Source of the DNA: a virus
Length of the DNA: 30,794 bases
Strand: one strand, 5' to 3'
IMG/VR virus record: IMGVR_UViG_3300032222_000252
Coordinates: 1 to 30,794 of that record
Shown: in pieces, positions 162-25,377 of the stretch
Layout: each line of letters begins with the position of its first letter
Position numbering within the stretch: the stretch's first letter is position 1
The notes under the pieces: model-generated
The model's input: the letters and a program-made list of their open reading frames with translations, nothing else
What the model was told of the DNA's origin: nothing
The model's database searches: none
Translations under genes and position numbers: made by a program

Positions 162-466
162 ATGAATAATGATTCTATTCACATAGGTAACATTGTTCAA
201 TCACAAGTCAAAAAAAGCGGTATAAAAATTGCTGAATTGGCAAGAAGAATAAATAAAAGCAGGAGGTTTCTTTATATTCTGTTTGAAAAAAAAATGCCCC
301 TTTGCATTATGTACAAGAAATAGGAAATGTTTTACATTATGATTTCTCAAATGAAATTGCAGGTATTAATAAAACAAAGGAAATTGAGGTGTGTTGGAAA
401 GATAAGTACATAAGTCTTTTAGAAGAACATAACAAACTTTTAAAACAAATATATATAAAAGTATAA
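162..466 (+). pseudogene. Helix-turn-helix regulator split by a one-base frameshift
   Basis: The ATG at 162 opens a frame reading SGIKIAELARRINKSRRFLY, a typical Cro/CI-like helix-turn-helix, which stops early at 321-323 after 53 codons. Moving by one base at the run of nine A (286-294) restores an open frame. It continues NAPLHYVQEIGNVLHYDFSN, the kind of sequence expected right after the helix-turn-helix in this family, and ends in a short charged helix at TAA 464-466. One missing A in the tract explains the break. It could be a real mutation, slippage-based expression or a sequencing error. The full product would be about 101 residues, a likely DNA-binding regulator. A hairpin follows the stop immediately. 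Confidence 0.7.
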
Positions 467-491
467 AGGGAGGTAACAACTCCTCCCTTTA
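464..491 (+). terminator. Hairpin terminator after the regulator gene
   Basis: The arms AAAGGGAGG (465-473) and CCTCCCTTT (482-490) pair perfectly around an 8-base loop, with one more T-A pair outside. The stem overlaps the stop codon of the regulator frame. No T-run follows on the + strand, so it may work as a weak terminator or an mRNA-stabilising hairpin. Confidence 0.5.
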
Positions 492-629
492 AAAAAAACC
501 AAGAAACTTTATACAACAACACACTATGGATAATGATGTTATTGACACAAAAATACTCCTTTTAATATCATAAAGATAATTTAAACACCACAATAACCTT
601 AAATAATTTTTACAGAATGATTTTATTTT
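492..629. other. Short intergenic region with a leader-like sequence
   Basis: No convincing gene lies here. A 15-codon frame starts at 526 and stops after a Leu/Ile-rich stretch. The bases before its ATG (501-523) resemble the leader before the gene at 4077: both have AAGAAACTT, then ACAACAA, then ATG within a few bases. A duplicated 5' leader, or a decayed copy of one, is possible. Confidence 0.3.
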
Positions 630-929
630 ATGGAGAAAACCAAATTTTACAAATATTATTTTAGAGGTTTAGATAAACCGCTGATAATGGAAGCAGAAGA
701 CAAAAATACTGCTGACCAAATGTTAGTTCAGTTGTCTATAAAATCAAAGGTAAGAATGAAAACGGCTGACCTGTATGATATAAGGATTGAAACGCCGTTG
801 TTTGGTATAACCACAAAGACAAGAAATAATATTGAATGGGTTTGGGTAGGAAAAGATAAAACCTCTGACGGTTGGCTTGAATTAGAAGAATACGAAAGAA
901 TCGAAAAAATAAAACAACAACAAAAATGA
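630..929 (+). CDS. Small hypothetical protein, first gene of the early operon
   Basis: This 99-residue protein begins MEKTKFYKYYFRG and contains ADQMLVQLS, then a Trp-rich segment NIEWVWVGKDKT and a Lys/Gln-rich end. No membrane segment or signal peptide is seen and no family was recognised. Its TGA overlaps the ATG of the next methyltransferase gene as ATGA, so the two are probably translationally coupled and co-transcribed. The position suggests an accessory early protein. No function is assigned. Confidence 0.75.
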   Translation: MEKTKFYKYYFRGLDKPLIMEAEDKNTADQMLVQLSIKSKVRMKTADLYDIRIETPLFGITTKTRNNIEWVWVGKDKTSDGWLELEEYERIEKIKQQQK

Positions 930-8088: not shown

Positions 8089-8715
8089 TTATAAAAATAT
8101 AAAAGTTGTTTTGTTTTTATACCTACCTAAAAGTTGGTCATTTAATGTTTTTCTATTCATTTTTAAATATTCAGCACATTCTTTTATACATCCAAAAATA
8201 ATTCCCGTTTCTTTACATATAACTTTTTTTGCCCTTGAGTTTCCTCCATTTTTTCGTTTATCTCCAATAGATATTTTGCGTTTTAATTTCGATTCCTTTG
8301 TGAAAACTCTATATTTAAGAGATTCTAATAGTTTATCTTTTAATTCTTGGCTTAATTTTTTTCCAAATCTATGGTTTTTAGAACCCATTCTACCCTCTGA
8401 CATCTTTTTTTTAGATTCTTCAGTAAAAATATATTTTTTTGTCTTTATGTCAGTAATCTTGCAATTCAGTCCATTTTCTCCTAAAACATTATAATATACT
8501 TGATAATAATTCTCTCTTTTATTTAAGTCTTCTGAACAACATTCTTCTAATATTTCAAAAGTATGGGATTCTATACTATATTTTTCAAAAGACCTATTTA
8601 ACCTTATTTGGTTCTTACTATGTTTGTAATCTCTCCATCTTTTTTTTATGTCTTTAGATTGACCTATGTAAACTTTATTTGACGGAGAGGTTATTTTATA
8701 AATTCCACAAATCAT
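8089..8715 (-). CDS. GIY-YIG homing endonuclease with NUMOD modules
   Basis: This 208-residue protein begins with the nuclease signature GIYKITSPSNKVYIGQSKDI, then KKRWRDY and the conserved Glu region SHTFEILEECC. The middle has NUMOD3-like repeats (EESKKKMSEGRMGSKNH, then a second copy near LKRKISIG). The end is a NUMOD1/helix-turn-helix-like module (GIIFGCIKECAEYLKMNRKT). This is the typical architecture of free-standing phage homing endonucleases. Its start codon overlaps the stop of the upstream fibre-like gene as ATGA, so it is likely translated by coupling and was probably inserted at the end of that gene. A second, divergent member sits at 18937. Confidence 0.9.
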   Translation of the reverse strand: MICGIYKITSPSNKVYIGQSKDIKKRWRDYKHSKNQIRLNRSFEKYSIESHTFEILEECCSEDLNKRENYYQVYYNVLGENGLNCKITDIKTKKYIFTEESKKKMSEGRMGSKNHRFGKKLSQELKDKLLESLKYRVFTKESKLKRKISIGDKRKNGGNSRAKKVICKETGIIFGCIKECAEYLKMNRKTLNDQLLGRYKNKTTFIFL

Positions 8716-10406
8716 ATTCCCCCATCAAAAATTATCCAATTTTTTGGTGCGCTTGTCAGTACATTTTTACCTGCCTGTCCTGCTAAAGTATATTTAATAG
8801 TTCCGAAATTAATTGTTTCGTTTGGCTGAACAGTTAGTAAACTCCAACCATTATATATTGCATCTAAATTAGCTGAAGAATAATCTAAATTTGTCTTACC
8901 TAACATAAAATTAATAAAGTTATTTACAATACTAATATTCCAAGAACCTATGTTTTGATTGAAAGCAGTTGCGTTAGCAAACATTCCATTCATATTAGTA
9001 ACACTACTTACGTCCCACCCACCAATGTTTTGGTTAAATGTAGTTGCTCCTGCAAACATATTATTCATTGTAGTTACATTACTTACAATCCAAGTACTAA
9101 TGTTTTGATTGAACGCCGTTACACCTGCGAACATAAAAGTCATATCTGTTACGTTAGTAACATTCCAAGAACCAATATTTTGATTAAATAAAAGTGCGCC
9201 ATTAAACATTGCATTCATAGTGGTAACGTTGCTTACATTCCAAGAACCAATATTTTGATTAAAAACAAGACATTGTTCAAACATACTACTCATATTTGTT
9301 ACGTTACTTACGTTCCAAGAACTAATATTTCCATTAAAATCAGAAGCAAACCTAAACATATTTGTCATATCAGTAACATTGCTTACGTCCCAAGAATTTA
9401 GTGATTGATTAAAAACACTTGCGCTACCAAACATATTGTTTAAAGTAGTGACATTACTTACATTCCAAGTGTTTAAAGGGCTATTAAAAGAGGAAGCCCC
9501 AAGAAACATTCTAGCTAATGAATTAGCACCTGTTAAATTCCAAGAACTAATGTCTTGATTAAAGTTAACGCAGTTTCTAAACATTGATTCAAATTCAACT
9601 ATTGTAGAAACGTCCCAATTTTGTAAATTATTAATTGAAGAAAAAGTACAATCCTCAAACATATTATCTACTCTTGTCATTGTACTCAAATCGGGAGTAT
9701 CTGTAACAGAACTTAAACTTAAATTTGTACAACCTGAAAATATACCAAGTAAACTATCACCGAAAATTATATTACCAAAATTACTTATACTTAATATTTT
9801 TAATATGTCGCCAGATGCCCCAAAAACAAAACCCTCAATAGTTCCTGTTAATGAAATACTGTATGTGCCTGAAGTAGTATATGTATGTAAAGTTTCTGCC
9901 TGATTCCAAGTTGTAATTGTATCTTGAGAACCATCTCCCCAATCAACTATAAAATTATAATTACCACCACTTATTAAAGGTAATTGTATTTGATTTGAAG
10001 CACTTGAGCCACCCGAAGTATTTGTTGTGTTCCAACTCGAAATAAAAGAAGTTGATATAATTGTTAAAGCCCCATATATATAAAAATCATTTGCGACATA
10101 AACTATATCTCCGCTATATTGAAAAATCCCTAAATTAAGAGTATTTAAAGCAAAAACTACTGATTCTATGTTGTAACCATCAACTTGAACCGTATAAGTT
10201 GTAGGCGTTGGATTCGCAGTACTTGAAATTACTATTGAGGCAGTAACGCTACCAAAATAATTTTCAGCAGACAAGTCCCATTGATATAAAAGAGATGGTG
10301 GAACTCCTAAAGGGTCAGAAGTACCACCTAAAATATTTACGTTTTGAGGAAGAGCAGTATTGTTTCTAACTCTTACATTTATAGTATCTTTAATCGAATT
10401 AACCAT
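8712..10406 (-). CDS. BspA-like DUF285 repeat protein, probable surface or fibre protein
   Basis: In this 564-residue protein, the N-terminal region (about 1-140) is beta-rich with no signal peptide. A PKD-like stretch follows with VDWGDGSQDTI (154-164) and HTYTTSGTYSISLTG (174-188). From about 240 to 500 it has around ten 25-residue repeats built on FNQNIGSWNVSNVT and a following M.FMFAGA-like segment, the BspA/DUF285 leucine-rich-like repeat seen in Bacteroidota and mycoplasma surface proteins. It ends in a short beta tail. Without a secretion signal it is more likely a virion surface or adsorption protein than a bacterial cell-surface protein. The repeats are rich in Asn/Ser/Thr and could be glycosylation targets. 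Confidence 0.82.
   Translation of the reverse strand: MVNSIKDTINVRVRNNTALPQNVNILGGTSDPLGVPPSLLYQWDLSAENYFGSVTASIVISSTANPTPTTYTVQVDGYNIESVVFALNTLNLGIFQYSGDIVYVANDFYIYGALTIISTSFISSWNTTNTSGGSSASNQIQLPLISGGNYNFIVDWGDGSQDTITTWNQAETLHTYTTSGTYSISLTGTIEGFVFGASGDILKILSISNFGNIIFGDSLLGIFSGCTNLSLSSVTDTPDLSTMTRVDNMFEDCTFSSINNLQNWDVSTIVEFESMFRNCVNFNQDISSWNLTGANSLARMFLGASSFNSPLNTWNVSNVTTLNNMFGSASVFNQSLNSWDVSNVTDMTNMFRFASDFNGNISSWNVSNVTNMSSMFEQCLVFNQNIGSWNVSNVTTMNAMFNGALLFNQNIGSWNVTNVTDMTFMFAGVTAFNQNISTWIVSNVTTMNNMFAGATTFNQNIGGWDVSSVTNMNGMFANATAFNQNIGSWNISIVNNFINFMLGKTNLDYSSANLDAIYNGWSLLTVQPNETINFGTIKYTLAGQAGKNVLTSAPKNWIIFDGGI
8907..9689 (-). repeat. Tandem 75-bp repeats encoding DUF285 units
   Basis: About ten imperfect copies of a 75-bp unit encode 25-residue DUF285 repeats; on the + strand the phrase CATTCCAAGAACCAATATTTTG and its variants recurs at this spacing. 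The copies have diverged, with the central ones most alike. Such arrays can gain or lose units by recombination, changing fibre length. Confidence 0.8.
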
Positions 10407-10407
10407 A

Positions 10408-10887
10408 TTAAATTTTTTTATTTCTTATTAAATAATACACCAATGCACCAACTAATAGAATTCCTGTGTATTTAACTACCTGTCTGCTTACAAAATGGTC
10501 GCCTTTAGCAAAGTTTACAAAGTGTTCGCAATTATAATTTAAAGAATCATATTTTTCTGATTTAAGGTCTTTATAAAGTTGGTCAAGAGTTTTAGAGTCC
10601 AAATCAGTTGATTCCACAGAAACTATTTCCCTACCCTCTTTAAGCCATTTCTCTAAAGGCTCTTTTACTAAATTACCCCCGCTTGAATTAACTTTATTAG
10701 GGTGTAGATGAACTATAAAAACCTCATCTTCTTTTCTCTCAATAATTCCGTGATGAACGTAAAGATGAAGTAGTTTTGATTTAGTTGTTATTGTATCTCC
10801 TGTTTTTAGTTTAGAAACTATATGGTTTCTATTTTGTATTTTTAATTTGTTTAATCCTATGTTGTTATATTTCCTCGACAAAGCCAT
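10408..10887 (-). CDS. LRAT/NlpC-P60-like protein with C-terminal anchor
   Basis: This 159-residue protein has YVHHGIIE (H45/H46) followed by a His-containing strand (VFIVHLH) and NYNCEHFVNFAKG (C120), the His...Cys layout and NCEHF motif of the LRAT group (circularly permuted NlpC/P60 fold). Known members are acyltransferases, lipases or peptidase-like thiol enzymes. The last 20 residues form a hydrophobic segment (YTGILLVGALVYYLI) ending RNKKI, so the enzyme is probably membrane-tethered. The start overlaps the upstream gene by 23 bases. A lipid- or peptidoglycan-modifying role during entry or assembly is possible; the substrate is unknown. Confidence 0.72.
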   Translation of the reverse strand: MALSRKYNNIGLNKLKIQNRNHIVSKLKTGDTITTKSKLLHLYVHHGIIERKEDEVFIVHLHPNKVNSSGGNLVKEPLEKWLKEGREIVSVESTDLDSKTLDQLYKDLKSEKYDSLNYNCEHFVNFAKGDHFVSRQVVKYTGILLVGALVYYLIRNKKI

Positions 10888-13030: not shown

Positions 13031-13903
13031 TTATTTCAAAGCCTGAATGATTTGATTAATATCAAAAACCTCATTCAAATCATTATAAGGAAATGTGCTT
13101 AAATCTTCAAATAATAAATGCTTTTGATAATAAGGGTGTTCAATATTTGTTGGATTAGTTGGTTCGTTTGCCACTATATTTGTGTGCATATCATAACCAA
13201 AAACTTTAGGGTTTGTTCCTACCCAAGTTACTACTGATGGCAAGTTAAGTGCGGTTGCAATGTGTAGAGAACTACTATCAATCAATAGTCTTTTTTCAGA
13301 TAACGTAAGTAATACTGCTATGCTTCTAAATGAATCTAAAGCCTGTAAAGTATTTTCATATATTAATTGGTCTTCACGCTTGATATGTAAAACGTGATAA
13401 TCGTTTGCGAAATGATTAATTACTTCCTGAACTATTGGTTGTGGAATATCTCTTGTCCAACTATATTTTAAAGGCTGATTCATTCCGCCCCCGTTTGGTT
13501 GAATAGCAAAAATAGGCTTGTCCAATTTATAAAAAGGCGCAAAATATTCTTTTTCTGCTTTTGACAAGAATAGTTCAGGCATTTCGCCATTATATTCTAC
13601 TCCGTACATATCACACCAAATTTTAATCAAGTGTTCGCTTTCTGTAAGAAAATCTGAAGTCAAGTAAGGGTCTGAAACAAAGACTTTCGCCTCTTTATTT
13701 AAGATATAATTTTTATGAATTCCTACCGTGTTTCCACCCGCCAATACTTTGTTGACATTTGGGTTGTTTGCAAAGACATCAGGAAAACCCGTAACTACAA
13801 TTATGTTTGCTTTTCTATATTGGTTTTTTATTGCTTTAAGGACTGCGGTAGCCATAATGTTCTTACCCAATCCACCGTCTATGCTAAAAATTATATTTGC
13901 CAT
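13031..13903 (-). CDS. GT9-like glycosyltransferase (heptosyltransferase family)
   Basis: This 290-residue protein starts ANIIFSIDGGLGKNIMATA, the glycine-rich loop of GT-B enzymes related to ADP-heptose:LPS heptosyltransferases. Later come FAIQPNGGGMNQPLKYSW and a donor-site-like LIDSSSLHIATALNLPSVV with VTWVGTNPKVFGY. The fold and motif order fit GT9. It probably moves a sugar from a nucleotide donor to a glycan or protein in the infected cell cytoplasm. It is downstream of the DUF2061, nucleotidyltransferase and APS kinase genes in one operon, and a second, larger GT9-related enzyme lies nearby. The acceptor is unknown. Confidence 0.82.
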   Translation of the reverse strand: MANIIFSIDGGLGKNIMATAVLKAIKNQYRKANIIVVTGFPDVFANNPNVNKVLAGGNTVGIHKNYILNKEAKVFVSDPYLTSDFLTESEHLIKIWCDMYGVEYNGEMPELFLSKAEKEYFAPFYKLDKPIFAIQPNGGGMNQPLKYSWTRDIPQPIVQEVINHFANDYHVLHIKREDQLIYENTLQALDSFRSIAVLLTLSEKRLLIDSSSLHIATALNLPSVVTWVGTNPKVFGYDMHTNIVANEPTNPTNIEHPYYQKHLLFEDLSTFPYNDLNEVFDINQIIQALK

Positions 13904-13913
13904 TTTATTTTTT

Positions 13914-14219
13914 TTATTTGTTTTTAATTCCGTAATCTGAAAAAGTGTACCAAGCCCTTTCGTGTAAAAAATACATAATAGGTTTTATACAAATTTCGGT
14001 TAATCCTATGCTTCCTGCAACCCAAAAGTTTCCTGTAAAAAAATACGAAATCAAACAAGTCTGCAAAGAGCCTAACGCTCTATAACTTACTGCTTTTAGG
14101 ACGTGTCTTTTGTAACTTACTGACTTTTTGCTTTTAATAATCTGCAACTCTAAACTATCGTCTTTTAGTTTTTCATATTCGTCAATATGTAACGTCTTAA
14201 AATATCGTGTATCTTCCAT
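13914..14219 (-). CDS. DUF2061 membrane protein
   Basis: This 101-residue protein has SYKRHVLKAVSYRALGSLQT, then hydrophobic TCLISYFFTGNFWVAGSIGL and TEICIKPIMYFLHERAWYTF. The Arg-Ala-Leu-Gly and Lys-Pro...Tyr-Phe-x-His-Glu-Arg-x-Trp pattern is that of DUF2061, a small two-helix membrane domain. DUF2061 is known fused to or beside APS kinase in some bacteria and phages, and here it sits in an operon with APS kinase. That supports a sulfur-assimilation or sulfation link, although its biochemical role is not established. Confidence 0.82.
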   Translation of the reverse strand: MEDTRYFKTLHIDEYEKLKDDSLELQIIKSKKSVSYKRHVLKAVSYRALGSLQTCLISYFFTGNFWVAGSIGLTEICIKPIMYFLHERAWYTFSDYGIKNK

Positions 14220-14223
14220 AGTT

Positions 14224-14634
14224 TTACAATTTACCGTCTTTACGCATTTGTTCTCTAATTTTGGTAGCCGATATTTCTGCTACTTCAGTAGGCGGTATAT
14301 GTTCTATTATGTCATATCCAACACCTCTTCCAAATTCAACGGAGCAAATATCAGGGATTACCATTACCTTAACAACCCCCTCTTTAAAAAAGGAAGCGTA
14401 ACTTGATTCTATATTTTCTTTTACCTGTTCAGCAGTAAAAGGATTTTTTTCGTTTACTTCTCCATCACGAATACAAATAAGTACGTTTTTACCATCGTTT
14501 ATAGCCTGTTGAAACATTTCTTTGTGACCAAGATGAAGTGGTTGCCATCTTCCGCAAAACATAGCGAATTGACCATTTTTTCTTTCTAAAGAAGATTCAA
14601 CGTGAACTTCTTTTTTCCATTCGTTATTTTCCAT
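14224..14634 (-). CDS. HxGH nucleotidyltransferase (cytidylyltransferase/ATP-sulfurylase-like fold)
   Basis: This 136-residue protein has FCGRWQPLHLGHKEMF, with the HxGH at residues 34-37, and a C-terminal ISATKIREQM (121-130) matching the ISxTxxR motif. Both are hallmarks of the nucleotidyltransferase superfamily that includes NMN adenylyltransferase, cytidylyltransferases and ATP sulfurylase. Length and motifs alone do not fix the substrate. The context of APS kinase, DUF2061 and a nearby sulfotransferase makes formation of adenylylsulfate an attractive guess. NMN or sugar-nucleotide activation for the flanking glycosyltransferases remains an equal alternative. Confidence 0.8.
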   Translation of the reverse strand: MENNEWKKEVHVESSLERKNGQFAMFCGRWQPLHLGHKEMFQQAINDGKNVLICIRDGEVNEKNPFTAEQVKENIESSYASFFKEGVVKVMVIPDICSVEFGRGVGYDIIEHIPPTEVAEISATKIREQMRKDGKL

Positions 14635-14635
14635 A

Positions 14636-14944
14636 CTAATAAATTGTTGCTACGTTGTTTTCAAAAACTACTCCTGTTGTATCACAAACTATATGATGTT
14701 TCTCTCCTACGTCTTCAAACTCTTCAGTTAATGTTCTTGTAGGACAATTAATTTGTATTTCAGAAGTATGATATTCTTCATTATCAATTATAACACGCCA
14801 TTTTTGAGTTCCGTCCGTGTCTGTATTGTTGTATCTAATTCTAACTAAAAAATGTGCTTCTTTGTCTTTTTTTGCTAATAAAACAACCTTACGACCCTCA
14901 AGTATTTGTCTTTGTATGGTTTGTGTTTTTGTTTCTTTTCCCAT
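14636..14944 (-). CDS. Hypothetical protein in the sulfur cluster
   Basis: This 102-residue protein reads TIQRQILEGRKVVLLAKKDK, then FLVRIRYNNTDTDGTQKWRV and IDNEEYHTSEIQINCPTRT. It looks beta-rich and globular, without membrane segments or catalytic signatures. Its start codon overlaps the stop of the APS kinase gene by 1 base and it is followed by the nucleotidyltransferase after 1 base, so it is firmly part of that operon. No family was recognised. A partner or small subunit of one of these enzymes is possible by position only. Confidence 0.7.
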   Translation of the reverse strand: MGKETKTQTIQRQILEGRKVVLLAKKDKEAHFLVRIRYNNTDTDGTQKWRVIIDNEEYHTSEIQINCPTRTLTEEFEDVGEKHHIVCDTTGVVFENNVATIY

Positions 14945-15396
14945 TATACTAAATTTTCAATTTTACCTAATAATTCGTTAAGAGATATTAATTCATCTAC
15001 TCCTGTCGTGTCTATATCTATGAAGTTTTCAGTAGGCGGTTGATAGTCAGCAACGTGAAACGCTTCCCTACCTCTTATATCTGTTGTGTGAACGTAAATC
15101 TCGATTACGTCTGCACTTGCTTTAAGTTCATCTCTTAAATCCTTGTAAGGAGAAACCAAAGAAACAATCACATCTGCACCCGAATCATCTAAATATTTTG
15201 CAATCGCAATTGCTTGAGAAATATTTGTTCTACGACCTTGTTCAGAATAGTCTTTGTTGTTAATAATTCTTCTTAAATCATCTCCGTCAACTAAATGCAC
15301 CGCTTTTAATGGATTGTTCAACATTAAAGCAGTTTTTAAATATTTAGCCAATGTGGTCTTACCTGCGTGTGGCTGACCTGTAAAAAAGTAAATCAT
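14944..15396 (-). CDS. cysC: Adenylylsulfate (APS) kinase-like protein
   Basis: The P-loop GQPHAGKT is at residues 7-14 of this 150-residue protein. It is followed by HLVDGDDLRRII, then YSEQGRRTNISQAIAIAKYL, then VSLVSPYKDLRDELK, the ordered motifs of APS kinase (CysC), including the RR-N substrate region. The enzyme makes PAPS from APS and ATP, supplying the sulfate donor for sulfotransferases. It is shorter than the usual 190-200 residues, with a trimmed C-terminus. Operon partners are a DUF2061 protein and an HxGH nucleotidyltransferase, and a sulfotransferase lies 2.7 kb away. A related kinase with another substrate cannot be excluded. Confidence 0.82.
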   Translation of the reverse strand: MIYFFTGQPHAGKTTLAKYLKTALMLNNPLKAVHLVDGDDLRRIINNKDYSEQGRRTNISQAIAIAKYLDDSGADVIVSLVSPYKDLRDELKASADVIEIYVHTTDIRGREAFHVADYQPPTENFIDIDTTGVDELISLNELLGKIENLV

Positions 15397-15876: not shown

Positions 15877-15924
15877 AAAATTGTTGTTTTCTTGGTAAAT
15901 TATAAGTTAATATAATAATTGAAC

Positions 15925-15975: not shown

Positions 15976-18057
15976 ATGAAAACTAAACTATTATTTTTAA
16001 TGCCTCACGCAAGTACGGGCGGAATGCCAAGTTTCGTACTAAAAAGAATCCAATTACTTAACAAATTATTTGATATTTATGTAGTAGAATATGAATGTTT
16101 GTCTGATATTTATGTATTACATAGAAATCAAATAAAAGAACTTGTAGGAAATAAATTCTATACTTTAGATAATAACAAGTTAGAATTAATAAACATCATT
16201 AATAGACACAAAATAGAAATTGTACACCTTGAACACGAAGCGGAGGGCTTTGATATGAATATGATTTCAATGCTATACAATAACGACAGAAAATACAGAA
16301 TTGTAGAAACTTGTCATAATATTATTTTTAAAGCCAAAGACAAAATTTATACCCCTGATGCTTTTGCTTTTTGCACACCTCATCATATTGAAACCTTTCA
16401 AGATATTGACACTTATAAACAGGTAATACAATACCCAATAGAAAATAATATTTGTAGCCCAAATAAAAAGGCTAGTTCAAAAAGAATATTAAGGCTTAAT
16501 GAAAACAAAACTAATGTTTTGAACGTTGGGCTTTGGACTAAAGGTAAAAATCAAGGAGAGGCAATAGAAATAGCGAGAAAGCACCCCGAAGTTGATTTTC
16601 ATTTCGTAGGTAATCAAGCAATGAATTTTGCAGACTATTGGCAACCATTGATGCAGGACTTACCTGAAAATGTAAAAGTTTGGGGAGAACGTGATGATGT
16701 TGGATTGTTTATGGAAGCCTGTGATGTTTTTATGTTCAATAGCACCTTTGAGTGCAACCCTTTAGTGTTAAAAGAAGCAATAGGGTATCAAATGCCTATA
16801 TTTGCACATAACCTGCCTCAATATTGCGGTATGTATGATAATTACATTTTTCCCGTTGAGGATTTCGGAAAAGAAATAGAAGAACATTATTTCGTATCAG
16901 ACGAAAAAGAAAAGTTTACAAAAGAATCAAAACAATTTTATAATTTAATATTAAAATCAAAAATGAAAAAACAAGAAACAAAATCGAGTTACAATTTTAT
17001 TACACATTTCGTAAACGGAGTTTACTTTGAAATCGCAGGTAATAGCCACTCTAATTTTAGAGTTCAATTCTCGGATATGAGCGGTAATCTCTTATACGAA
17101 GAAACAATCAAGTGTAATTCTTGGATTAAGTTAGACAGGCAATATTATTTCGATTGGAATATTAAAGTTTGGGAAAACGACAAACTTGTACATAATGAAG
17201 ACGTTTCTTTAAAAGGGAAAAGAGTTATGATTGGTTTTGAATCGTCTTCTCTTGGAGATACTTTGGCTTGGTTGCCTTATTGTGATGTTTTCCAAAAGAA
17301 ACACGATTGCCAATTGATTGTTTCTACTTTTAAAAACTTTTTATTCAAAGACCAATACCCTAATATTGAATTTGTTGAGCCAAGCACGGTAGTTCCGAAC
17401 TTGTTCGCTAAATATGATTTAGGTTGGTTCTATGATAAAAACAGAGAGCCTGTTTTACCTAATACAATACCATTACAACAAACGGCTACAAATATTTTAG
17501 GATTAGAGTATTCTGAAATTAAACCTAAATTGAATTTTACACCAAAAGGAAGATTAGGTTATGAAAAAATTTATGTGTGTATTGCCCCTAATTCTACGGC
17601 AGGTTGTAAAGAATGGGTTAAAGAAAGTTGGCAAGAAGTTGTAGATTATTTAGTTTCGCAGGGAATTATTGTTTACAACATATCTAAAGAACAAAATTAC
17701 GATTTGAATGGTATTACACCTATTGAAGATTATAGTATTGAAAACACTATGAATTTAATTCATAAGGCTGAATATGTAATATCATTATCTTCAGGTTTAA
17801 GTTGGTTGGCTTGGGCTTTAAATAAAAAGGTAATTATGATTGCTAATTTTACAGAGGCGAATCACGAATTTTCAACTGACTGTATTAGACTTGTAAATGA
17901 AAGTGTTTGTCACGGGTGTTGGAATAATAAGAATTTCAAGTTTGATAAAAGTTTGTGGGGATGGTGTCCAATTTATAATGGTTATGAGAAGCAATTTGAA
18001 TGTCAAAAATCAATTACTGCTGAAATGGTAATTGAAGAAATTAAGAAACTTAATTAA
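15976..18057 (+). CDS. Two-domain glycosyltransferase: GT4-like plus BAHT/TibC-like O-heptosyltransferase
   Basis: The ATG at 15976 (MKTKLLFLMPHASTGGMPSF) is preferred over a TTG at 15919 that lies upstream of the promoter-like box; the product is 693 residues. Residues about 1-310 form a GT-B domain with STFECNPLVLKEAIG (257-270), the E-x7-E-like donor site of GT4 enzymes. Residues about 340-410 are a beta-rich linker. Residues about 415-693 match the bacterial autotransporter heptosyltransferase group (TibC/AAH type). This part has FESSSLGDTLAWLPY, CIAPNSTAGCKEWV, VISLSSGLSWLAWAL, and a terminal four-cysteine cluster C645, C648, C664 and C676, which in TibC binds iron. That family O-glycosylates Ser on repeat-rich surface proteins, so the viral fibres are plausible acceptors. 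It is the only + strand gene in this stretch. Confidence 0.85.
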   Translation: MKTKLLFLMPHASTGGMPSFVLKRIQLLNKLFDIYVVEYECLSDIYVLHRNQIKELVGNKFYTLDNNKLELINIINRHKIEIVHLEHEAEGFDMNMISMLYNNDRKYRIVETCHNIIFKAKDKIYTPDAFAFCTPHHIETFQDIDTYKQVIQYPIENNICSPNKKASSKRILRLNENKTNVLNVGLWTKGKNQGEAIEIARKHPEVDFHFVGNQAMNFADYWQPLMQDLPENVKVWGERDDVGLFMEACDVFMFNSTFECNPLVLKEAIGYQMPIFAHNLPQYCGMYDNYIFPVEDFGKEIEEHYFVSDEKEKFTKESKQFYNLILKSKMKKQETKSSYNFITHFVNGVYFEIAGNSHSNFRVQFSDMSGNLLYEETIKCNSWIKLDRQYYFDWNIKVWENDKLVHNEDVSLKGKRVMIGFESSSLGDTLAWLPYCDVFQKKHDCQLIVSTFKNFLFKDQYPNIEFVEPSTVVPNLFAKYDLGWFYDKNREPVLPNTIPLQQTATNILGLEYSEIKPKLNFTPKGRLGYEKIYVCIAPNSTAGCKEWVKESWQEVVDYLVSQGIIVYNISKEQNYDLNGITPIEDYSIENTMNLIHKAEYVISLSSGLSWLAWALNKKVIMIANFTEANHEFSTDCIRLVNESVCHGCWNNKNFKFDKSLWGWCPIYNGYEKQFECQKSITAEMVIEEIKKLN

Positions 18058-18089: not shown

Positions 18090-18908
18090 TTATACATATC
18101 CAAAATAGTCATAAAACCATTTATAGTGATTTCTAATATTCATTGAAAGTTCGTAACCTAAAACTTCCATAAAATCATCAGGTTTTTTCTCGAATTTTTC
18201 TCTTAAAGTATGGTCGCCGTATATTCCGTGAACCACATCGTTTTCGTGAGTAATTTGGGTAACGTTTTCAAAATCGTGTCCCTCGTAGTAAGGTTTGTCT
18301 ATGTATTCATAAAACCTTTTCATTTCGTTTTCAGGATTAGACATCAAGTCTTCATATCTAATGAATAAGACCTTTTTGTCGATACCTTGTTGTATCATAT
18401 CTCTTAATCTATCCATAGAAGTACCAACAGGAACTCCACCCGCCCAAATGTCAATTCTTTTATCAAGGGTTGTACCTATAAGTTGAGGTGCGTTTTGTAT
18501 ATGGTTTTCTCTATGTGGATTTTTACGGAAGTTTTTTTCCATAGAAGCAAAAACTGCTCTTACATCTCTTACCATACAAATAACTTTAGGGCTTTCTTGA
18601 AACATTTCAAGAAGTCCGTAGTTTATTCCCCACTCTCTGCTTTTATCCAAAACCATTTGCTTATCAGTAAGACCATTGAAGTAACCCTGCATACCTGCAC
18701 GAGAAAATTCAATAAATGATTTCTCCATTTGTTTTGCATCTTGGGCTTGAAATGCTTGAGAATGATTGTAAGTGTTTTTAGCGTTTAAAATCAAATCCGA
18801 CAAGCCCGAAGTAGGCGTTACATAAATGTCTGTGTTTTGCCCAATAACATTTGAAATCAAAGTTGAACCCGAACGAGGTAAAGATGAGTTAAAAAATATT
18901 TTTTTCAT
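18090..18908 (-). CDS. Sulfotransferase (PAPS-dependent)
   Basis: The N-terminus of this 272-residue protein, FFNSSLPRSGSTLISNVIG, carries the 5'-phosphosulfate-binding loop LPRSGSTL (10-17). PKVICMVRDVRAVFASMEKN is the 3'-phosphate-binding strand and helix, and VLFIRYEDLMSNPENEM is the conserved YEDL block. These identify a sulfotransferase that moves sulfate from PAPS to a hydroxyl or amine. It has no membrane segment, so it acts in the cytoplasm. It is separated from the APS kinase operon by the glycosyltransferase gene, and the three together suggest a glycosylation-sulfation set. The acceptor cannot be read from sequence. Confidence 0.9.
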   Translation of the reverse strand: MKKIFFNSSLPRSGSTLISNVIGQNTDIYVTPTSGLSDLILNAKNTYNHSQAFQAQDAKQMEKSFIEFSRAGMQGYFNGLTDKQMVLDKSREWGINYGLLEMFQESPKVICMVRDVRAVFASMEKNFRKNPHRENHIQNAPQLIGTTLDKRIDIWAGGVPVGTSMDRLRDMIQQGIDKKVLFIRYEDLMSNPENEMKRFYEYIDKPYYEGHDFENVTQITHENDVVHGIYGDHTLREKFEKKPDDFMEVLGYELSMNIRNHYKWFYDYFGYV

Positions 18909-18936: not shown

Positions 18937-19626
18937 TTAATTATTTTGGTTATCTAAAATAAAATTATGCCCTCTGCATTTTCCATTTTTTATTATAGAT
19001 TGTCTAATAGCAGTATAGCTTATATTAAATTTATTTCCAGCATCAATTAAAGAATTAAAACGCTCTCCAGTTTGAACACAAATTACTTTAACTCCAATTG
19101 ATTTTTTCTTTGATTCTGAAAGGTTTTTTTTATGTTGTTCAGATTTAGGGAGTTTTGCAATTGCTCTTAATTTTTCAATATTTTCTTGCGTTGGTTTTCT
19201 GCCTATTTCTTTTTGTCTTTGAGATATTTTTTCTCTTACCCAATCGGGTGCTTTTTTATTTTTATTATGTGGTATAATCCCTTTTAATGCTAAACTCATT
19301 TTTTTCTTTCTTTCTTCTGAAAGCGGAACTCCTCTTGTTGGATTTTCAATAAATTCTCCACAATTAAATAAAATATAACCTTTATTTTTATAAAAATCAG
19401 CCCAATAAATTTCTCTTTTTATTAAATCTAAAACATTACATTCTTCTAAAATTTCAAATATAAAAGAATCCATACCATATTTATTGTAACTATTTAATAA
19501 ATTTTGATTATGCTTACCTCTTTTTAATTTACTTTTATGAGCAAGCCATCTTTGTTGTATATTGCTACTACTACCAATATAAACTTTATTATTATCCACA
19601 CAAGTTATTTTGTAAATCCCAATCAT
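18937..19626 (-). CDS. GIY-YIG homing endonuclease, second copy type
   Basis: This 229-residue protein begins MIGIYKITCVDNNKVYIGSS, followed by IQQRWLAHK and the catalytic Glu region DSFIFEILEECN. NUMOD3-like units (SEERKKKMSLALKG; KSEQHKKNLSESKKK) and a final NUMOD1-like module (FNSLIDAGNKFNISYTAIRQ) follow. Its architecture matches the protein at 8089, but the sequences differ enough to suggest separate acquisition or old divergence. It lies between the sulfotransferase and a small fibre-associated gene, probably as a selfish insertion in virion-region DNA. Confidence 0.9.
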   Translation of the reverse strand: MIGIYKITCVDNNKVYIGSSSNIQQRWLAHKSKLKRGKHNQNLLNSYNKYGMDSFIFEILEECNVLDLIKREIYWADFYKNKGYILFNCGEFIENPTRGVPLSEERKKKMSLALKGIIPHNKNKKAPDWVREKISQRQKEIGRKPTQENIEKLRAIAKLPKSEQHKKNLSESKKKSIGVKVICVQTGERFNSLIDAGNKFNISYTAIRQSIIKNGKCRGHNFILDNQNN

Positions 19627-19722: not shown

Positions 19723-20064
19723 TTATTTTACAACAGGGTTTGTTGTTTTTTCAACAGGGTTTGTTGTTTTTTCAACAGATTTTTCTTTAAGTTCTAAAAT
19801 CAAATCATTAATCAAAGGTTTTAAATCATCTTGGTCTTTTAAATCAAACCCATCTTTACTTGTAAATCTAATATCATTGTAACCAAAAATATGTATAACG
19901 TGATATTTTTCTTCTGTTTCTAAATCTAAAGGTTTTTTATTCCATATTGCATCAACTAAAGGTTTTACTTTTGTAAGTTCAGTTGTTGCTATTTTGTTTG
20001 AAAATTCATTAGAATTAATTTGTGTTTCTCCATATCCAAAAATATGTATTGTAAAATTTTCCAT
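19723..20064 (-). CDS. Small protein with duplicated IHIFGY domain
   Basis: This 113-residue protein contains two copies of a roughly 40-residue unit. The first has FTIHIFGYGETQINS...KVKPLVDAIW (about 4-41) and the second VIHIFGYNDIRFTSK...LKPLINDLIL (about 56-90). The C-terminus is a short tandem VEKTTNP repeat. It starts 2 bases after the end of the giant fibre gene, so the two are co-transcribed and it may be a fibre accessory or assembly protein. No known family was recognised. The spacer of about 96 bases between it and the endonuclease is non-coding. Confidence 0.7.
   Translation of the reverse strand: MENFTIHIFGYGETQINSNEFSNKIATTELTKVKPLVDAIWNKKPLDLETEEKYHVIHIFGYNDIRFTSKDGFDLKDQDDLKPLINDLILELKEKSVEKTTNPVEKTTNPVVK
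19731..19772. repeat. Two direct 21-bp repeats at the gene end
   Basis: The 21-base unit CAACAGGGTTTGTTGTTTTT (plus one T) occurs twice in a row, with a partial third copy from 19773. In the - strand frame it encodes VEKTTNP repeats at the C-terminus of the IHIFGY protein. The copies are identical, suggesting a recent duplication. Confidence 0.9.
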
Positions 20065-24768: not shown

Positions 24769-25377
24769 TTACTCTACAACATTAAGAACACCTTTGTTGT
24801 TCCATATAGAACCTTTAGGTAATCCTTTATTTGATGTAGGTAATTTTATTATCGAAAGATTTTCGACAAATGTTGCATCGTCCCTGTCTGCAACCACATT
24901 AGAGCCGATTATATGAGTGTTGATATGTTTTTGAATTTTATTATTTTGTCCTGCCAAAACAGAAGAAAGTCTTCCGTTTACTGTATTTCCGCTACCGCCT
25001 ACTATTATTCCAAAATCAGCATCAACCGTATTTCCTTTACCGCCACCCACAACAGAGTATCTGTTAGAAGTCGTGTTTGATTCTCCACCATTAATTACAG
25101 AGAACTCGCCTCTATTGACATTATATTCTCCACTTAAAATAACACTATTTTTACCATCTAAAGTATTGCTTTCACTAATAGCCATTAAATAAAAACCACT
25201 CTCGTTATTTTCATTTTCTTTATAATTATTTTTAATGAAGTTCGACAAAGATTCAACATTTCCGTAAATATCTTTAAGCATTGCTTCTCCTGTTGAATTA
25301 TCAATATAAATTGCTAATCCACCACCACTTGTAGGTGCTTGTACTGTTCCTGCGCTTGATTTTATTAAATTTCCCAT
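24769..25377 (-). CDS. Short fibre paralogue with YadA-like repeats
   Basis: The first 50 or so residues of this 202-residue protein (AIYIDNSTGEAMLKDIYGNV) match the base module of the giant fibre, residue for residue at many places. From about 70 to 160 it has head-like repeats (SVVGGGKGNTVDADFGIIVGG). A short C-terminal beta segment ends GVLNVVE. It has no collagen-like block and no C1q domain. It reads as a short form of the fibre, built on the same attachment module, or as an assembly adaptor that co-trimerises with it. It lies 16 bases upstream of the giant gene in the same operon. Confidence 0.82.
   Translation of the reverse strand: MGNLIKSSAGTVQAPTSGGGLAIYIDNSTGEAMLKDIYGNVESLSNFIKNNYKENENNESGFYLMAISESNTLDGKNSVILSGEYNVNRGEFSVINGGESNTTSNRYSVVGGGKGNTVDADFGIIVGGSGNTVNGRLSSVLAGQNNKIQKHINTHIIGSNVVADRDDATFVENLSIIKLPTSNKGLPKGSIWNNKGVLNVVE

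Follow-up and report, generated by a model that had tools for sequence, protein, structure and literature searches.

A GT4-TibC fusion glycosyltransferase encoded by a virus near collagen-like fibre and sulfation genes

IMG/VR virus record IMGVR_UViG_3300032222_000252, whose 30,794 nucleotides were analysed in full (the window), encodes a 693-residue enzyme in which a GT4 glycosyltransferase domain is fused to a domain of the TibC type. The domain identity, the intact catalytic and cysteine residues, the conservation of the fusion and the genomic association with fibres and, for those of the β-roll type, with a cassette of sulfation genes are directly established by the comparisons described below. 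The protein is probably a bifunctional soluble protein O-glycosyltransferase with which the virus glycosylates its own fibre, a product that in this virus may also be sulfated.

The enzyme is encoded by an uninterrupted frame that begins with ATG. An in-frame TTG at position 15919 is a possible alternative start, and neither codon is preceded by a Shine-Dalgarno sequence. The NCBIfam model TIGR04414 (autotransporter strand-loop-strand O-heptosyltransferase) matches residues 358-692 with 263.8 bits, above its curated cut-off of 200. Profiles for lipopolysaccharide (LPS) heptosyltransferases I and II give only 29.3 and 12.1 bits, below their cut-offs of 185.3 and 134.6. Pfam recognizes GT4 and GT9 domains in the protein, with GT4 (PF00534) scoring 37.2 bits on the N-terminal half against a gathering score of 26.4. 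The top solved structure by sequence in the Protein Data Bank (PDB) is TibC (4rap, E = 4e-46). In an AlphaFold model built from an alignment of 59 viral sequences (mean predicted local distance difference test (pLDDT) score 90.6), residues 338-693 superpose on TibC residues 21-387 with Z = 37.7 and a root-mean-square deviation of 2.1 Å over 349 residues, including the N-terminal β-barrel, and residues 2-325 superpose on the GT4 enzyme HepE with Z = 29.2. An earlier note, made from the sequence without database searches, had proposed the GT4 fusion and a TibC-group domain at residues 415-693, to be checked against TIGR04414 and the TibC structure. Both comparisons bear out the identity of the domain, and the fusion is confirmed. 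The start at 415 was misplaced: because the β-barrel lies inside the matched region, the domain gains about 75 residues and begins near residue 338.

The residues that define TibC function are largely retained. In TibC, Asp110 is the catalytic base, Thr226, Lys230, Trp305 and Arg286 contact the ligand, and Cys339, Cys342, Cys358 and Cys370 form an iron finger (PMC4358343). Asp110, Thr226, Lys230 and Trp305 align with D428, T541, K545 and W610 of the window enzyme, and the four finger cysteines align with C645, C648, C664 and C676, the same cluster that the earlier note had picked out. None of these eight positions varies among 59 viral homologs, and in a wider viral sample almost every member has the same residues. 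These shared active-site and finger residues allow the window protein to be called a TibC-type glycosyltransferase. In one viral homolog (L385, 9517-11820) the finger cysteines are replaced by P, Y, Y and K in the alignment, and the active-site Asp, Lys and Trp are kept.

Two features of TibC do not carry over. Arg286, which contacts adenine in TibC, corresponds to T591, and Thr is more than 90% conserved at this position in the window clade. Across a wider viral sample the position is Arg in some homologs and Thr, Val, Leu, Ile, Met or Ser in others. The tip of the TibC thumb (Phe265/Val266) joins dimers into a dodecamer (PMC4358343). The β-hairpin thumb of the window enzyme is about nine residues shorter, and no long hairpin is predicted between residues 569 and 587. 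Another viral homolog, L393, keeps Arg286, Pro300 and a TibC-like thumb region. With Arg286 replaced and the thumb missing, neither an ADP-heptose donor nor a dodecamer can be assumed, and both were dropped as unsupported. The label 'dodecameric heptosyltransferase', which follows the earlier description of the enzyme, is thus not warranted on alignment and model.

The window enzyme otherwise resembles TibC and AAH (TIGR04414; PDB 4RAP, 4RB4) in its N-terminal β-barrel fold, catalytic Asp, phosphate-binding Thr and Lys, sugar-binding Trp and four-Cys finger, but it is viral and GT4-fused. GtfA and SdgB (PDB 4PQG, 7VFL) share the GT4 fold and act on Ser-rich proteins. However, they match only the GT4 half, with Z of about 24, and HepE is closer. 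Proteins are the known substrates of this fold with its β-barrel and cysteine finger, and no base-hypermodification genes were recognized among the window genes scanned. It is therefore highly improbable that the enzyme places sugars on hypermodified viral DNA, even though phage glycosyltransferases have often been assigned to DNA, according to work cited in PMC12619734.

A motif scan found relatives in at least 530 viral contigs, and most of those retained are full length, with about 50% identity. Many have additional domains at the N-terminus: FkbM or other methyltransferases, GT8-like or DXD-sugar transferases, and GT2. Among approximately 50,700 GenBank phages, four records match, two of them equal in length and score. 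The corresponding scan of about 85,000 cellular genomes, limited by its strict motif patterns, yielded one partial match, in a Bacteroidetes metagenome-assembled genome, and no match exceeded the cut-off in 395 genomes of the same phylum. On these two results a host origin of the gene was rejected. The TibC-type family thus appears to be widespread in viruses and essentially absent from cellular genomes. No description of phage TibC homologs was found in the literature searched, which mostly did not extend to subscription papers and preprints.

The candidate acceptor is a 1561-residue fibre encoded 2.0 kb downstream of the enzyme gene on the opposite strand, with the sulfotransferase and a GIY-YIG gene in between. 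The earlier note had its size and its Gly-Thr-Ser character right. Its collagen-like part comprises 207 Gly-X-Y triplets in three blocks, with Thr at X in 125, Ser at Y in 116 and no Pro; Gly-Thr-Ser accounts for 94 triplets, and Ser-Gly occurs 137 times in the fibre. A β-roll-like region of 'FIGGGxxN' repeats follows the collagen blocks. Unlike TibC and AAH, the window enzyme has this fibre as its neighbour rather than an autotransporter with strand-loop-strand repeats; the fibre matches collagen-like models only.

The same pairing recurs in other viruses. Counting only TibC loci with 5 kb or more of downstream sequence, 60 of 66 have a collagen-like (Gly-Thr-Ser) or 'GGGxxN' β-roll fibre near the enzyme gene, and the side on which it lies is constant within the window clade. 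TIGR04414 is present in 19 of 50 viral records picked by a DNA pattern for Thr-Ser-Gly (TSG) collagen and in three of 50 picked by arbitrary patterns, samples that were not length-matched. The three (two of which, G081 and G086, look like the same virus) are all among the five TSG-collagen-positive records of the random sample, and none of its 45 TSG-negative records has the domain. A sixth pattern match, G076, reads Gly-Arg-Arg and was not counted as TSG collagen. Fisher's test gives P = 5e-4 within the random sample and P = 7e-7 for 19/50 versus 0/45, values that overstate the evidence because loci within one clade are not independent. Of 16 records longer than 60 kb, ten have the TibC gene and a TSG fibre no more than about 6 kb apart, where 3.6 would be expected if a 22-kb target is assumed (P = 3e-4). 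Strand order varies among these 16, which argues against one inherited block. TibC and TSG fibres are also paired in unrelated viruses: Microcystis phage Mel-JY01, a 735-kb phage and crAss-like phages, the last recognized by capsid, portal and terminase (PHROGs). The Mel-JY01 collagen open reading frame (L099, PP395634.1, 2-3052) runs across the record start, and the hypothetical genes annotated on the opposite strand are likely a misannotation.

These presence/absence and distance tests point specifically to the fibre. They make it rather improbable that the acceptor is a different virion protein or the virion as a whole, and that the fibre association reflects late-gene clustering, an explanation that would fit the occurrence of TSG fibres without a TibC gene. 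The window lineage has a conserved 232-residue protein, and of 31 records that share it, two carry TibC, each together with a TSG fibre. One more TSG fibre of this lineage is located at the end of a contig, and a collagen with Thr only (TTG; GTTG repeats; G122, 2355-2446) is found without TibC.

A sulfation cassette that the earlier note did not mention surrounds the enzyme gene. It includes a sulfotransferase and an adenosine 5'-phosphosulfate (APS) kinase-like protein that may supply 3'-phosphoadenosine 5'-phosphosulfate (PAPS). The latter scores 58.7 bits on curated model TIGR00455, below the cut-off of 138.7. At least two cassette genes are present in 16 of the 66 TibC loci. β-Roll fibres accompany 13 of these 16 and none of the 50 others (P = 3e-11, not corrected for relatedness). 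The cassette is common to the window clade and to crAss-like phages, with approximately 36-51% identity and different gene orders. A sulfated product glycan in cassette-bearing viruses would be the simplest account of these genes.

Several observations weigh against fibre glycosylation by the virus. Fibres of these kinds are absent nearby in six of the 66 loci. TIGR04414 is missing from 31 of the 50 TSG-selected records, some of them 113-219 kb long, and eight regions around such fibres, judged by eye and without a profile scan, contain no evident glycosyltransferase. Records longer than 100 kb that look T4-like have long TSG fibres with no evident transferase adjoining. The inflated Fisher values belong here as well, as do the Arg286 change and thumb loss, which keep donor and oligomer from being transferred from TibC. 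Moreover, others have often assigned glycosyltransferases in phage fibre islands to host LPS (PMC7029224). The 31 records show that TSG fibres do not strictly depend on TibC; the enzyme is an accessory to such fibres rather than a requirement. The proposal of the earlier note that the virus glycosylates its own fibre gains a statistical link to Ser/Thr-Gly fibres; the case for the fibre as acceptor, which we infer from genome context, is strong but not obligate.

The main rival reading takes up the host LPS assignments, which are usual for the fibre islands of pelagimyophages (PMC7029224): host surface polysaccharide would be remodelled during infection by the glycosyltransferases, methyltransferases and sulfotransferase, with superinfection exclusion as the effect, and the fibre would be near only because both belong to a host-recognition island. 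GT4, GT8 and FkbM domains are indeed common in surface-glycan pathways. This reading is nevertheless unlikely, because characterized relatives with the TibC fold modify protein Ser (PMC4358343), the TibC unit is paired with TSG fibres in unrelated viruses with differing gene orders, and the sulfation cassette follows fibre type.

For glycosylation of the virus's own fibre, we infer the enzymatic activity, donor sugar, order of additions, sulfation target and benefit in the following model. During fibre synthesis in the infected cell, the TibC domain would add a first sugar to Ser, perhaps also Thr, in the Gly-Thr-Ser collagen-like stalk, the β-roll of the neighbouring fibre, or both. The Ser of Thr-Ser-Gly is a likely starting point, since TibA Ser313, which TibC modifies, sits in N-S-G-G (PMC4358343). 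The fused GT4 domain could then place a second sugar on the first. In relatives, the fused GT8/GT2-like and FkbM or other methyltransferase domains might lengthen or cap the glycan, and in the window virus the APS kinase and sulfotransferase might sulfate it. A hydrated glycan sheath could lend stability to a triple helix that lacks Pro, and could protect the fibre or tune it; shielding and receptor tuning are further potential benefits. Stalk stabilization is plausible in light of BclA of the Bacillus exosporium, a glycosylated bacterial collagen-like region in which a role of the glycans in sustaining hydration networks has been proposed, although BclA is a spore protein modified by different enzymes (PMC8968730).

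Virion glycosylation and viral collagen glycosylation are already known in other forms. Mycobacteriophage structural proteins carry glycans (Freeman et al. 2023), but these are on capsid and tail tube subunits, as cited in PMC12619734. Mimivirus L230 glycosylates the viral collagen-like protein L71, but it is a different enzyme that hydroxylates Lys and attaches Glc to hydroxylysine (PMC9614988). It is possible, though doubtful, that the viruses studied here share a mobile glycosylation-sulfation system, in which modular polyenzymes (TibC and GT4, with or without GT8/GT2 and methyltransferase) and a PAPS/sulfotransferase cassette pass between tailed crAss-like phages and a lineage that apparently lacks a terminase, and build sulfated O-glycans on collagen-like fibres.

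Other genes of the window are included in Table 1. The DUF285 protein, which had been described as lying beside the enzyme, ends 5.6 kb from it, on the side opposite the fibre; few loci share its gene, and it was rejected as a linked partner or acceptor. A second GIY-YIG homing endonuclease gene (8089-8715) follows it. A small LRAT/NlpC-like protein (10408-10887), just below the Pfam cut-off, is kept next to the DUF285 gene in relatives.

Table 1. Enzyme, cassette, fibre and neighbouring genes in the window
Feature	Position	Strand	Basis or remark
GT4-TibC fusion glycosyltransferase, 693 residues	15976..18057	+	Profiles, PDB sequence match, AlphaFold model, alignment
Domain map of the fusion	GT4, residues 1-330; TibC β-barrel, ~338-410; GT-B catalytic domain with four-Cys finger, ~411-693		
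Sulfotransferase	18090..18908	-	Pfam PF00685/PF13469; kept with the module in 19 other loci
APS kinase-like (PAPS supply)	14944..15396	-	Pfam PF01583, 64.1 bits
Nucleotidyltransferase-like, weak ATP-sulfurylase similarity	14224..14634	-	PF01467
DUF2061 membrane protein	13914..14219	-	PF09834, 70.3 bits
Conserved cassette protein, possibly GT9-like (not secure)	13031..13903	-	No Pfam match; TIGR02201, E = 0.039; in 17 other loci
Candidate acceptor fibre, 1561 residues	20067..24752	-	Collagen-like profile matches, repeat counts
Second short fibre-like protein, similar N-terminus, GGxxN repeats, without collagen	24769..25377	-	Family comparison across loci
Small conserved protein adjoining fibre, function unassigned	19723..20064	-	Present in 9 other loci
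GIY-YIG homing endonuclease, probably a selfish element that separates fibre and sulfotransferase genes	18937..19626	-	Not at this spot in closest relatives L002-L004
DUF285/PARCEL-repeat protein with PKD-like part	8712-10406		Common to only a few relatives; outside the module

The window lineage is possibly a group of large, tailless, membrane-containing phages. Its members encode many proteins with a single transmembrane segment and have no match to Pfam Terminase_6N. A HerA/FtsK-like ATPase has a weak PHROG 'terminase' match (E = 5e-6). The very conserved, β-rich protein of 232 residues occurs in 38 contigs of about 8-102 kb. The positions noted for these features are L101:12357-13178 and L101:15465-16163, in record G001, a close relative of the window. 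As a candidate capsid protein it gave a poor model (pLDDT 55) with no significant fold match.

If fibre glycosylation by these enzymes is real, aquatic phages in large numbers, most of them uncultured, carry genes of their own for protein glycosylation, and probably sulfation, of the fibres that contact their hosts. Phage annotation at present ascribes such chemistry to the modification of DNA or LPS. The enzyme, the candidate acceptor motif Thr-Ser-Gly and the isolate Mel-JY01 supply a testable set, and the answer would bear on the stability of Pro-free phage collagens.
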